From Acidobacteriota bacterium (lineage in GTDB: Bacteria; Acidobacteriota; Terriglobia; Acidiferrales; UBA7541), in NCBI GenBank assembly GCA_003167215.1, contig PMTV01000057.1, positions 1 to 64,000 of the forward strand: 64,000 bases of DNA, given 5' to 3'. Below, piece after piece: positions 47,270-52,500 of the stretch. The first letter of the stretch is position 1. Each line of letters starts with the position of its first letter. The notes under the pieces were generated by a model, which worked only from the letters and a program-made list of their open reading frames with translations, was not told the origin of the DNA and made no database searches. Both the position numbers and the translations under genes were made by a program.

Positions 47270-50200
47270 TTACGACCGCTCGGCTGCGGCCGCACTCCTG
47301 CGCCGGTGTAAATCTTGCAGCGCGCCGACGTCAGCCGAATGCCCCGCCATCGCCCGAATCCCTCGAGCTGCCGCGCTGGCCGCTGAAAGAGTGGTAATGC
47401 ACGCGATGTTGTAACGAATCGCTGCGCGCCGAATCGATTTCTCGTCCCAGAAAGATTCGCGCCCCAGAGGAGTGTTGATGACCAGATCTATTTTCCCCGT
47501 CTTGATCAAATCCACAATGTTCGGCCTGCCTTCGTTCACTTTGTAAACTGATTCGATCTCGATGCCCGCGCTAGCCAGCGCTGCAGCGGTCCCTCGCGTG
47601 CCTACTACTTTCAATCCCGCCGCCATCAGGTCCTGAACCACAAACGCCAGATGACGCTTGTCGTGATCGTTCACGCTGATAAAAACCGTGCCCTCGAGCG
47701 GCAACCGCTGGCTCGCGGCAAGCTGCGCCTTCGCGAATGCCAGCCCAAATGTGGAGGCAATGCCCATCACCTCGCCGGTCGACCGCATTTCCGGCCCTAG
47801 AATCGTATCCACACCGCGGAATTTGTTGAACGGAAAAACCGGCGACTTCACCGCATAGAAATTTCCCACCGCGATTTCCTTCACCCCTTTCGTTTCGATG
47901 CACGGAAGTTTCAAGTCGCGCAATTTGCGCCCGGTCATCAATCGCGCTGCCACTTTCGCCAGCGGCACGCCCGTCGCCTTGCTCACGTACGGAACAGTGC
48001 GCGACGCGCGCGGGTTCACCTCCAGCACGTACACCGTGTCGCGCTGGATCGCGTATTGCACGTTCATCAGTCCCACCACATTCAACGCGCGCGCTAGGCG
48101 CGAAGTGTAATCGCGAATCCGCTCCAGTATCGAAGGCTTCAGCGTCACCGACGGCAGCACGCACGAAGAATCCCCCGAGTGAATCCCCGCCTCCTCGATG
48201 TGTTCCATGATCGCCGCGATCACCACTTCCTCTCCGTCCGCGAGCGCGTCCACGTCCACCTCGGTCGCATCCTCCAGAAACTGATCGATCAGGATCGGCC
48301 GCTTCGGATCCGATGCCGTTCCAATTAGCGCGGCTTGCGCCACATACTCTTCCACCGTCTTCAAATCGTACGCAATCACCATCGCGCGCCCGCCCAGAAC
48401 GTAGCTCGGACGCACCACTACCGGAAGCCCAATCTCCGTGGCAACCTTCACCGCCTCTTGAGGCGTAAGCGCGGTACCCGCGCGCGGCTGCGGAATCTTC
48501 AGCTCATTAAGCAACGCTCCGAATCGCCTCCGGTCTTCAGCCAGATCGATTGATTCGGGATCCGTGCCGATAATCTTTGCTCCGTTTCGTTTCAACTCCA
48601 GCGCGAGATTCAGCGGCGTTTGCCCGCCGAATTGCACGATCACTCCCTCCGGCTTCTCGCGGTCCAGGACCGCAAGAACATCCTCTAGCGTAAGCGGCTC
48701 AAAATACAGCCGGTCAGAAGTGTCGTAATCGGTCGAGACAGTTTCCGGATTGCAATTCACCATCACCGTCTCGTAGCCGTCTTCTTTCAACGCGAATGCC
48801 GCGTGGCAACAGCAATAATCAAACTCAATTCCCTGTCCGATTCGGTTAGGCCCGCTGCCAAGAATCACAACTTTGGGCCGCTCGACCGCTCCTGTCTCAT
48901 CCTCTTCCTCATATGTGGAATAAAGGTAGGGCGTAAAAGATTCAAACTCCGCCGCGCATGTATCCACGCGCTTGAAAACCGGACGGATCCCCAACTCGTT
49001 ACGTCGCGCTCGTACTTTGTCCGGCGTCGTGTTCCACAGTTGTGCCAATTCGATATCGCTCGTGCCCGAGCGTTTCGCTTCCAGAAGTAATTCCGCCGAC
49101 GTCTTCTCCAAGCTTCCGACCGCCACGCGGCGGTCCACTTCCACCATTTCCATCATCTGGCGGATGAACCACGGATCAATCCTCGTCAGCGAGCAAACTT
49201 CCTCGCAACTCATGTCGCGCTGGAGCGCCTCAAACAGCCAGTGAATGCGGTCCGGCCCCGGCACGGTAAGCTTCTCGCGCAAAAGCGCAGTCGAAACTTC
49301 CGCCGGCGCGCGCCACGGCGTGTGGGGTTCGAGCGACCGGATGCCCTTGCCTAGCGCCTCTTGAAACGTTCGCCCGATCGCCATCACTTCGCCCACAGAC
49401 TTCATCTGCGTGGAAAGCGTGGTATCGCTTCCCGGAAACTTCTCGAATTGCCACTTGGGAATTTTCACCACAACGTAATCAATGGAGGGTTCGAACGAAC
49501 TCGGCGTCTTCTTGGTGATGTCGTTCGGGATTTCATCCAGCGTCATCCCCAGCGCAAGTTTGGCCGCAATCTTCGCGATTGGAAAACCAGTCGCCTTGCT
49601 CGCCAGCGCCGAGCTGCGCGAAACGCGCGGATTCATCTCAATCACCACCATTCGCCCCGTTTCAGGCTGGATGGCGAACTGAATATTCGACCCGCCTGTC
49701 TCCACTCCCACCGCGCGGATGATCGCCGCCGCCGCGTCGCGCATGCGCTGGTATTCCTTGTCGGTCAGTGTCTGCGCCGGAGCGACGGTGATCGAATCGC
49801 CAGTATGAATTCCCATGGGATCGAAATTTTCAATCGAGCAAATCACCACGAAGTTGTCGCGCACGTCGCGCATCACTTCCAGCTCGTATTCTTTCCAGCC
49901 CAGCGCCGATTCCTCGATCAATGCCTGATGCACCGGGCTGGCGTCCAACGCCCGCGCGATCAAGTCGGCGAATTCCTCCCGATTGTACGCAATCGATCCC
50001 CCCGTACCGCCCAAAGTGAACGAAGGCCTAATCACCACGGGATATCCAAGCTCGTCCGCCAACCGCACAGCGTCAGGAATCGTAGTCACGACTTCAGACG
50101 CCGGTACTTCCAGCCCGATTTCGCGGCAAACATTCTTGAACAGCAGCCGGTCTTCCGCAATTTTGATCGCTTTCAGCGATGCGCCAATCAGCTTCACATT

Positions 50201-50533
50201 ATATTTTTCAAGTATGCCCGCCTCGGCAAGCTCCACCGCAAGATTCAGCCCCGTCTGCCCTCCCACCGTCGGCAGCAGCGCGTCCGGCCGCTCCGCCGCA
50301 ATAATCGCCTCCAAATATTCCTTCGCCAGCGGCTCAATGTAAGTCCGGTCCGCAGTTTCCGGGTCCGTCATAATCGTCGCCGGATTCGAATTGACCAGCA
50401 CCACCTCATATCCTTCCGCACGCAGCGCCTTGCAAGCCTGCGTCCCGGAATAGTCAAACTCGCACCCCTGCCCGATCACAATCGGCCCCGAGCCGATGAT
50501 CAATATTTTCTTAATGTCAGTCCGTTTCGGCAT
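47270..50533 (-). CDS. carB: Carbamoyl-phosphate synthase large subunit
   Basis: A 1087-residue enzyme that uses ammonia from CarA to make carbamoyl phosphate for pyrimidine and arginine synthesis. The two halves begin [13 protein letters not shown] and [13 protein letters not shown], the two ATP-grasp repeats; the C-terminal MGS-like allosteric domain has F-I-S-V-N-D-H-D-K. It starts with ATG at 50533. It is split from carA by a 737-base region with a GIY-YIG gene. Confidence 0.97.
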
Positions 50534-50671
50534 GGTTCCTAGTGTCTGTTCGTTCCCGCATTAACGTCAGCTCGCTTCATCATCGTCCATTAGCATTCGC
50601 CAGCTTCAGCCCGTTCACGGTCGACCTACGCCCACTTCGGCACATCCTCGGTCGAACCCACCTACACAAAC

Positions 50672-50710
50672 CTGTCATCCCGAGCCAGATTTAAGGCGAG
50701 GGATCTGCTC
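50672..50710. repeat. Copy of GIY-YIG unit end sequence (relict)
   Basis: The 39-base block, starting CTGTCATCCCGAGCC and ending GAGGGATCTGCTC, is a close match to the block at 50848-50886, with internal substitutions only. It lies on a decayed copy of the gene end. Confidence 0.7.
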
Positions 50711-50764
50711 TCTCTTAAATCTCCCAGCCGCCCAATTCCCCGCGAGGTCCGTCCAAGTCGGATT
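50675..50764 (-). pseudogene. 3' fragment of a second GIY-YIG gene
   Basis: Read on the minus strand, 29 codons and a TGA encode N-P-T-W-T-D-L-A-G-N-W-A-A-G-R-F-K-R-E-Q-I-P-R-L-K-S-G-S-G. The intact gene next door ends N-P-T-W-A-D-L-A-A-S-W-A-S-G-K-F-N-R-E-Q-I-P-R-L-K-P-G-S-G. The first 80 or so residues are absent, so this is a truncated duplicate. Confidence 0.75.
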
Positions 50765-50847
50765 CAGCCCGTCCTCGCTCCACTTTGGCGTCGCGCTTAT
50801 CGGTGGCCAACCTTCGGCCTATCCTCGGTCAAAGCACCCCCACTACC

Positions 50848-50886
50848 CTGTCATCCCGAGCCCGGTTTTAGGCGAGGGATCTGCTC
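50848..50886. repeat. Left inverted end of GIY-YIG unit
   Basis: CTGTCATCCCGAGCC... to GATCTGCTC overlaps the last 12 codons and stop of the GIY-YIG gene. Its reverse complement resembles 51195-51226 at the other end of the gene, so the two form imperfect inverted repeats. Confidence 0.6.
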
Positions 50887-51189
50887 TCTGTTAAATTTCC
50901 CAGAAGCCCAACTCGCCGCGAGGTCCGCCCACGTCGGGTTTTCACTTTCAACCAATGCGACCTTCCTCGAACGTCGCCAGCCCTTAATCTGTTTTTCCCT
51001 CGCGATCGCATCGCGCACATACTGAAAGGATTCAAAGTAAACGAGACGGTTGATTCGGTACTTTTCAACGAATCCGGGTACGCGCGCCTCCTTGTGCTCG
51101 CAAGTTCTCCGCATCAGACTGTTGGTGACGCCCACGTATACTCTTCGTGAAAGACTAGCCATGATGTATGTGCAATAGTGCCTTTGCAT
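50851..51189 (-). CDS. GIY-YIG domain protein of a repeat-flanked unit
   Basis: A 112-residue single-domain GIY-YIG endonuclease-like protein. The motif region is Y-C-T-Y-I-M-A-S followed by V-Y-V-G-V-T-N-S-L-M-R-R; the conserved Arg and a later Y-F-E-S and R-E-K-Q-I-K-G-W-R-R block match the UPF0213/YhbQ-like group. The Glu expected later in the domain is plausibly in Y-F-E. It lies between carA and carB and is flanked by imperfect inverted repeats, with a truncated duplicate downstream. The role may be structure-specific nuclease or element mobility. Confidence 0.85.
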   Translation of the reverse strand: MQRHYCTYIMASLSRRVYVGVTNSLMRRTCEHKEARVPGFVEKYRINRLVYFESFQYVRDAIAREKQIKGWRRSRKVALVESENPTWADLAASWASGKFNREQIPRLKPGSG

Positions 51190-51194
51190 GACAA

Positions 51195-51226
51195 GAACAG
51201 ATTCCTCGCTGCGCTCGGAATGACAG
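51195..51226. repeat. Right inverted end of GIY-YIG unit
   Basis: The plus strand block, from GAACAGATTCCTCG to GGAATGACAG, lies just before the GIY-YIG start codon. Its reverse complement (CTGTCATTCCGAGC to GAATCTGTTC) matches the left end with a few substitutions and a length difference in the middle. Confidence 0.6.
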
Positions 51227-51270: not shown

Positions 51271-52500
51271 TCAAACACTTTCTTTCATCATCGAAATGAA
51301 ATCGTCGAACAAATATCGCGCGTCGTGCGGCCCAGGCGAACCCTCCGGATGATACTGAACGCTAAACAGCGGAAGCGACCGATGCCGCATTCCTTCGTTC
51401 GTGTGATCGTTCAGATTCACGTGCGTGATTTCAACCTCGCTCGCCGGCAGCGAATCCGGATCCACGCAAAACCCGTGGTTCTGCGACGTGATCTCCACCT
51501 TCTTCGTCCGCAAATTCTGCACCGGATGATTCGAGCCGTGATGTCCGAACTTCAGCTTAAACGTGCGTCCGCCGAGCGCCAGCCCGCAGAGTTGGTGCCC
51601 CAGGCAAATCCCAAAAATCGGGACGCGCCCCAGCATCTTACGAATATTGCCCACTGCGTACCCGATAGGTTCAGGGTCCCCCGGCCCATTCGAAAGAAAA
51701 ACGCCCTGTGGCTTGAGCGCGAGCACATCCTCCGCGGAAGTTTGCGCCGGAACCACGGTCACGTCGCACCCGTAATCCACAAGCAGCCGCAAAATGTTTT
51801 GCTTGATGCCAAAATCGTAGGCCACCACTTTATAGCGCGGCTCACCGTCCGAATCTGCAGCGTGCTTCACCTTACCGACCGCAGGGCCACCAGCACTCGC
51901 CGTTTGTGTTGCACCAGGCGCGGCCACCTCGCCCGCGACACCCGCAGCAAGATCAATCGACCCGCGGCTCCATTCGTACTTTTTCTTCGACGTGACGCGG
52001 CTCGCAAGCTCGAGGCCAGCCATGGTCGGCAAAGCCCGAGCCTCCGCGATAAGCTTCTCTGCCGCCGTGCCGTCCGTCGCCACCACTCCCCGCAACGCGC
52101 CAACCTCACGCAGATGCCGCACCAGAGCGCGCGTATCCACATCCCAAATTACCGGCACACCGTAGCGCTCCAGGTAAGCCTGCGCCGTCTCGCTCGACCG
52201 CCAATTAGAAGCAAGCGCGGAAAATTCCCGTGTGATCAGTCCTTCAATGTAAGGTTTCGCGGATTCTTCGTCGTCGAGATTCGTGCCTACGTTTCCGATG
52301 TGCGGATACGTGAGGCAGACAATCTGGCCGGAGTAGCTTGGGTCGGTGAAAACTTCCTGGTAGCCAGTAATGCTCGTATTAAAAACGACTTCGCCGCCGC
52401 AGCGCGTGCGAGCGCCCGCTGCGCGGCCTTTAAATACTCGCCCGTCTTCGAGCGCGAGAATCGCGCGGCCTGCCGGGTCTTGCGTCAGTGTGTCCTCCAA
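51271..52500 (-). CDS. carA: Carbamoyl-phosphate synthase small subunit
   Basis: A 409-residue glutamine amidotransferase subunit. The N-terminal CPSase domain starts with A-I-L-A-L-E-D-G-R-V-F-K-G; the amidotransferase domain carries G-I-C-L-G-H-Q (catalytic Cys) and Y-H-P-E-G-S-P-G-P-H-D (His/Glu). An extra loop in the middle is Gly/Ala-rich. It begins three bases after the lepB stop, so both are likely on one transcript; carB follows after the interrupted region. Confidence 0.96.
   Translation of the reverse strand: MEDTLTQDPAGRAILALEDGRVFKGRAAGARTRCGGEVVFNTSITGYQEVFTDPSYSGQIVCLTYPHIGNVGTNLDDEESAKPYIEGLITREFSALASNWRSSETAQAYLERYGVPVIWDVDTRALVRHLREVGALRGVVATDGTAAEKLIAEARALPTMAGLELASRVTSKKKYEWSRGSIDLAAGVAGEVAAPGATQTASAGGPAVGKVKHAADSDGEPRYKVVAYDFGIKQNILRLLVDYGCDVTVVPAQTSAEDVLALKPQGVFLSNGPGDPEPIGYAVGNIRKMLGRVPIFGICLGHQLCGLALGGRTFKLKFGHHGSNHPVQNLRTKKVEITSQNHGFCVDPDSLPASEVEITHVNLNDHTNEGMRHRSLPLFSVQYHPEGSPGPHDARYLFDDFISMMKESV

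Follow-up and report, generated by a model that had tools for sequence, protein, structure and literature searches.

The stand-alone, Slx1-like GIY-YIG nuclease gene found in the window (the whole stretch of 64,000 nucleotides analysed here) and the TGTC/CGTC-tagged REP hairpins at its borders appear to form one genetic system, organised in the manner of a RAYT/REPtron and built on an unrelated enzyme; we put the probability of this reading at roughly two in three. The association of the nuclease with the REPs is itself close to certain. Gene and hairpins are linked across phyla and vary together in type, the pairing within the hairpins is conserved, solitary REPs and REP dimers (REPINs) of matching kind are scattered through the genomes, and whole units are present in some genomes and absent from their relatives. 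It is also likely that the nuclease has an enzymatic role on the REPs, and the arrangement in the window is real, probably a REPtron-like system with an unrelated enzyme. From these patterns we infer that the nuclease, as a putative mobilising enzyme, cuts the REP hairpins and moves them.

The nuclease gene and its repeats in the window

The window is contig C9 of a 3.78-Mb genome (G000). It contains the following features relevant to the unit:

47270-50533, minus strand: carB, the downstream host gene
50659-50764, minus strand: decayed second copy of the 3' end of the nuclease gene and its REP (REP at 50672-50710)
50848-50886, plus strand: REP 3' of the nuclease gene, tag outward, overlapping the stop codon
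50851-51189, minus strand: GIY-YIG nuclease gene, 112 aa (Pfam GIY-YIG, 45.6 bits against a cut-off of 22.6)
51192-51226, minus strand: REP 5' of the nuclease gene, tag outward, ending 2 nt before the ATG
51271-52500, minus strand: carA, the upstream host gene, named from established sequence features together with its pairing with carB in relatives

The nuclease gene thus lies between carA and carB, bracketed by two TGTC-tagged REP hairpins in inverted orientation, which confirms the inverted repeats described around it in the initial annotation and adds what that annotation had not named, the class of the repeats, which is the TGTC/CGTC kind. The 5'-side REP (51226-51192) has the structure TGTC-ATTCC-GAGCGCAGCGA-GGAAT-CTGTTCTTG, or, in a finer split, TGTC-ATTCC-GA-GCGCAGC-GA-GGAAT-CTGTTCTTG; the 3'-side REP has the structure TGTC-ATCCC-GAGCCCGGTTTTAGGCGA-GGGAT-CTGCTC, in a finer split TGTC-ATCCC-GA-GCCCGGTTTTAGGC-GA-GGGAT-CTGCTC. 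Both share the form TGTC-ATYCC-GA...GA-GGRAT-CTG. Their stems start with complementary AT residues (ATYCC...GGRAT), a feature that is partly imposed in the wider collection, because the scan itself requires GTCAT. The TGTC tag of the 3'-side REP supplies the TGA stop codon of the gene (50851-50853), and the C-terminal tail of the protein, EQIPRLKPGSG, is translated REP. The REP head, CTGTCATYCCGAGC, has four matches with up to two mismatches in the window, compared to 1.03 expected, and the three exact matches all lie at the GIY-YIG locus.

The decayed duplicate of the gene end and repeat block, also proposed earlier, proved to be real. The segment at 50659-50764 matches the gene's 3' end and REP (50835-50940) with 85% identity over 106 nt, and it is old, since the close relative G064 also carries it. 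Between carB and the nuclease gene, at 50604-50833, a 22-nt sequence (CTTCGGCACATCCTCGGTCGAA) recurs in four imperfect copies, which a search of the window's genome revealed to be a local and not a genome-wide repeat.

The GIY-YIG domain spans about residues 5-80 of the 112-aa protein and is the only domain recognised by Pfam, with no added DNA-binding domain such as NUMOD. The catalytic positions Y8, Y18, G20, R28, H32 and E65 are intact; among 30 homologues, Y8, Y18 and R28 are invariant and E65 is found in at least 90%. An AlphaFold2 model of the 81-aa domain (pLDDT 90) has its nearest solved folds in the UPF0213 protein 1zg2 and in Slx1-Slx4, a branched-DNA nuclease. An enzyme that reads a hairpin would be expected to be a nuclease of this kind, selective for structure and free of additional DNA-binding domains. 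The genome contains only one other GIY-YIG gene, a 632-aa frame that looks like uvrC.

The REPs themselves are dispersed through the window's genome, as judged from pattern searches, on which all genome-wide counts rest. The 13-base head was found with up to one mismatch at 34 places, compared to 4 for the reversed control, and about 20 of these are complete elements of the form TGTC-ATYCC-GA..GA-GGRAT-CTGYTCTT; the solitary ones look like singletons, not dimers. A strict hairpin pattern, GTCATNCYGA(4-30)GARGNATC, gave 14 matches and none for its control, and it can be regarded as specific, because its reversed control matched only 0-1 times per genome over the 89 genomes of the family. Since the fold energy was uninformative for the window REPs, which fold no better than shuffled sequences (z = -0.85 and +0.26), we relied instead on the co-variation of the arms. 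In short-type REPs whose two three-base arms were both left free by the pattern, the arms were complementary in 76 of 76 cases, comprising 9 arm types, whereas shuffling predicts 16, indicating that the hairpin is maintained.

Some REPs of this genome deviate from the standard form. A variant with an extra inner palindrome (CCTGCCTGTCGGCAGACAGG) is identical at two loci on separate contigs (L010, 1469-1512, on C35; L018, 1502-1545, on C66), suggesting recent copying. A longer REP-headed element of roughly 90 nt, again with an inner palindrome (CCTCCGCGCAGCGGAGG type), is shared by L015 and L016 (contigs C49 and C53) and is missed by the standard hairpin scan.

Linkage and co-variation of nuclease and repeats

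Within the family, a homologue of the nuclease is present in 39 of the 89 genomes, and most of the loci fetched have adjacent hairpins. A wider test comprised 80 loci on genome contigs from about twenty or more phyla, selected by protein similarity alone. Hairpins occurred there at a density of 2.55 per kb within 400 bp of the gene, compared to 0.139 per kb beyond 1 kb. At least one lay within 400 bp at 64 of the 80 loci; at the remaining 16, none was detected over this distance, in some cases for lack of flanking sequence. When the interval was narrowed to 150 bp, a hairpin was found next to 57 of 75 testable GIY-YIG genes and only 12 of 140 other open reading frames at the same loci (p = 3e-24), and hairpins on both sides were found for 35 of 75 versus 1 of 140 (p = 4e-18). 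The nearest flanking REPs were mutually inverted at 53 of 66 loci (p = 3.6e-7). Their tags pointed outward in 39 of these pairs and inward in 14; many of the inward pairs belong to loci at which the gene is bordered by complete REP dimers. The base preceding GTC was T in 200 and C in 53 of the 261 flanking REPs. Chance as the source of this pairing is rejected by the shuffles and the controls with other reading frames.

The abundance of REPs follows the presence of the gene. Genomes of the family that contain it have a median of 51 REPs, compared to 11.5 for those without (p = 3e-5, an optimistic value because the genomes are related); for genomes that are at least 90% complete, the numbers are 58 and 12. 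Genomes without a detected gene still hold REPs (up to 129 in G082). We also searched 46 genomes that contain loci from other phyla, chosen because a hairpin of the tested class flanks their GIY-YIG gene. The REP pattern was found in all 46 and at four or more places in 45 of them, with 1 to 588 REPs per genome and 0 or 1 for the control. The end sequence highlighted in the initial annotation is both dispersed in the window's genome and found at the flanks of GIY-YIG genes of the same subfamily across phyla.

Enzyme and repeat also vary together. The stem class was equal on both flanks at 60 of 66 loci, with a mean of 26.6 and a maximum of 39 after shuffling. Mapped onto the GIY-YIG tree, it required 20 changes, whereas shuffling raised the number to 37, or to 30 (minimum 25) if classes were exchanged only among members of one phylum, an agreement that is supportive rather than precise because the tree is based on few columns and has many open forks. 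In this tree, the nuclease of a Candidatus Acidiferrales MAG (L064) sits on a zero-length branch with the family member L037. Two genomes of the family, G028 and G030, each carry two types of the gene. Their clade-A genes are 98% identical to each other and associated with GAACGAACGTGA-type REPs; their clade-B genes are 90-93% identical and associated with GTCATTTC...GAAAT REPs; between the clades, identity drops to about 56% and the REPs differ. TTTC-type REPs number 21 in G030, which has two clade-B genes; this is the highest count among the 89 genomes, most of which have none. G028 has 6, three of them beside the gene. The prediction concerning TTTC-type REPs thus held clearly in G030 and weakly in G028.

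Controls indicate that the linkage is specific. Distant GIY-YIG paralogues from the same genomes had a canonical adjacent REP in 1 of 18 cases (3 of 18 by raw scan), and the sole positive belongs to the main subfamily in truncated form. Among further close paralogues, 10 of 14 had such a REP. The distant paralogues lead us to reject REP flanking as a general property of GIY-YIG genes.

Presence and absence of units between relatives

Comparison of the carA-carB intervals at 15 same-genus loci identified a REP-GIY-REP unit in three genomes (G000, G064 and G066), a lone REP in one (G078) and neither in the other 11. These gaps reject the idea of a conserved host gene between carA and carB. In G037, which belongs to another genus, the same gap contains a GIY-YIG gene with a different REP type, which is either independent or old. 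Together with the dispersal of the end sequence, this result bears out the suggestion that the locus represents a REP-associated cassette with a GIY-YIG nuclease as the resident gene, a reading that withstood both tests by which it could have been refuted.

Similar differences are found elsewhere. Azospirillum lipoferum has a REPIN-GIY-REPIN block between sufB and sufC, whereas A. oryzae, A. ramasamyi and Azospirillum sp. B510 lack it; Rhizobium tumorigenes carries a REPIN between hutH and hutG that Rhizobium sp. L51/94 does not have; and the REPINs of pSymB vary among S. meliloti strains, a variation that looks partly like deletion. An exact target-site duplication was sought at the sufB-sufC, hutH-hutG and pSymB sites and none was found; as the junctions were either too diverged or suggestive of internal deletion, we do not claim a target site. 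For two further Sinorhizobium sites, no empty allele was found. The mobility proposed in the initial annotation is thus supported by the presence or absence of units between relatives, without an exact target site being readable.

Relation to known systems and alternative explanations

Like the REPs of the window, whose tag is TGTC, members of the CGTC-REP superfamily have an unpaired terminal tag (CGTC, TGTC or CCTC) and an AT-initial stem and are dispersed between genes in many copies; the superfamily also shows paired units. The four families described by Di Nocera et al. (2013; PMC3733652) are characterised by stems of 8-9 bp, loops of 4-5 nt and tails resembling CCA, whereas the window REP falls outside them, with a 5-bp outer stem, G.A/A.G mismatches, a 2-3 bp inner stem and a CTG tail. 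The parallel with RAYT/TnpA-REP REPtrons lies in the architecture: a resident nuclease gene is bounded by inverted REPs that also occur alone, there are many solitary REPs and REPINs, and the types of enzyme and REP are paired. However, the REPtron enzyme is of the HUH/Y1 type and its tag GTAG, whereas the window's unit has a GIY-YIG enzyme and a TGTC tag (TGTC/CGTC in GIY units generally). Lacking both an HUH enzyme and a GTAG tag, the REP-GIY-REP unit is not a member of the REPtrons. The UPF0213 and prokaryotic Slx1-like stand-alone nucleases (1zg2, 1ywl; Slx1 6seh) share the same minimal GIY-YIG domain and are the best structural match, yet the distant paralogues in the same genomes are not flanked by REPs. 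Homing endonucleases of the I-TevI type belong to the same nuclease superfamily and have a similar flavour of selfish element; unlike them, the window's unit is devoid of NUMOD and has its own terminal hairpins, which are found alone in the genome.

In the mechanism that we propose, the nuclease would recognise the REP hairpin (tag, AT-initial stem and usually a tandem G.A mismatch) in single-stranded or extruded form and nick it at or near the GTC foot. Repair or strand transfer would then copy the REP-bounded segment elsewhere, and solitary REPs and REPINs would be descendants of the REP-GIY-REP unit that lack the gene.

The GIY-YIG fold is common among homing endonucleases (PMC1564403), and many units resemble a gene placed between two tag-outward REPs, that is, inside a REPIN. 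The nuclease could accordingly be a homing-type selfish gene that landed in REPs or REPINs spread by something else. We consider this unlikely, given that its nearest folds are UPF0213 and Slx1 rather than I-TevI and that no DNA-binding domain has been added. Moreover, the REPIN-GIY-REPIN arrangement, in which the nearest REPs are tag-inward (14 of 66 loci), is unexpected from insertion into one REPIN, and the ends that occur without a gene are scattered through the genomes and match the enzyme in type, which is the usual relation between a transposase and its non-autonomous copies. The window's genome also has no match to Y1_Tnp, the only other enzyme class searched. Still less probable is the absence of any functional link, with host regulatory hairpins or inert repeats gathering beside an Slx1-like repair gene. 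REPs do lie in gaps that are transcribed, where they can function as hairpins in the RNA (PMC3733652), and a REP supplies the stop codon of the gene in the window. However, other reading frames at the same loci are flanked on both sides in only 1 of 140 cases, distant GIY-YIG paralogues in the same genomes lack such flanks, and chance clustering leaves the co-variation with the enzyme tree and the paralogue-specific REPs unexplained, so that we regard this scenario as improbable.

Two further possibilities receive very little weight. RAYT-type HUH (Y1) transposases, which are thought to move GTAG REPs (PMC3733652), might also move the REPs studied here, making the linkage with GIY-YIG genes secondary; the number of Y1_Tnp genes indeed tracks the REP count in the family (Spearman 0.34), and in a rank regression on REP count it reached t = 2.7, versus t = 3.6 for GIY. 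Yet neither the window's genome nor G064 has a Y1_Tnp match, while both carry REPs; none of 12 Y1_Tnp (RAYT-type) loci of the family has an adjacent TGTC REP; and Di Nocera et al. reported no tyrosine transposase flanked by CGTC REPs (PMC3733652). The missing Y1_Tnp matches and the unflanked Y1 loci lead us to reject RAYTs as the mobiliser. We give a similarly low probability to a domesticated system of mostly vertical inheritance, of the kind proposed for RAYTs, in which the pair once spread REPs and now serves the host. The gene is often present in a single copy per genome, its active site is intact and copies within a genome have mostly diverged, in line with such a history, but its scattered presence in close relatives and the presence or absence of units at the species level point to turnover.

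A REPtron-like system with a GIY-YIG enzyme would also bear on the superfamily as a whole. CGTC-tagged REPs, which include dRS3 of Neisseria and RPE-4/RPE-6 of Rickettsia, form a large superfamily described in 2013 without a known enzyme and noted to 'apparently lack a dedicated transposase' (Di Nocera et al., 2013; PMC3733652). Three of its documented hosts carry homologues of the nuclease beside their repeats, which that study grouped as CGTC REPs. The homologue on a plasmid of Azospirillum lipoferum 4B is flanked by CGTCATCCCCGCGAAGGCGGGGATCC repeats whose 8-bp stem, 4-nt loop and CCA tail fit the published form. In S. meliloti the flanking repeats of the homologue are CCTC-tagged, and in Neisseria gonorrhoeae they form an array of the dRS3 type; the same scan found no hairpins at homologues on two sphingomonad plasmids (L152 and L155). 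The Slx1-like GIY-YIG nuclease is thus the best candidate for the dedicated enzyme of the CGTC REPs, and the odds are about even that the stand-alone nucleases of this subfamily mobilise the whole TGTC/CGTC/CCTC superfamily across bacteria and are the enzymes it was missing. There is a fair chance that they constitute a new class of repeat-mobilising enzyme. An analysis of the GIY-YIG superfamily considered functions of the Slx1-like group in repair or restriction and did not discuss palindromic repeats in this context (PMC1564403), and in the open-licence literature, a scope that leaves out subscription papers, we found no paper linking GIY-YIG nucleases with REPs.

With a specific, co-varying partner gene that is found across phyla, the question of the enzyme becomes testable with a protein of about 100 aa and short hairpin oligonucleotides. 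If correct, our reading would point to a function for many genes whose sole annotation is 'GIY-YIG nuclease family protein' and extend the set of nuclease folds that are known to disseminate repeats in prokaryotes. It would also reveal a transposition-like machinery that relies on a GIY-YIG nuclease in place of the HUH, DDE, tyrosine or serine enzymes.

Several minor observations concern the sequences analysed. The records NZ_CP119140.1 (N. gonorrhoeae, 2.17 Mb) and CP090106.1 (S. meliloti Ak57 'pSymB', 3.72 Mb) are labelled as plasmids and are of chromosome size; these labels are probably errors. Three IMG/VR contigs classed as viral (L143, L146 and L149) contain REP-flanked GIY-YIG genes of the same subfamily, which may be prophage-borne units or host contamination. 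Finally, genome G004 has REP dimers with a regular spacer of about 30 nt (contigs C5, C33-C35 and C47-C51), which often combine a short-loop with a long-loop REP, as though the element had two different ends.
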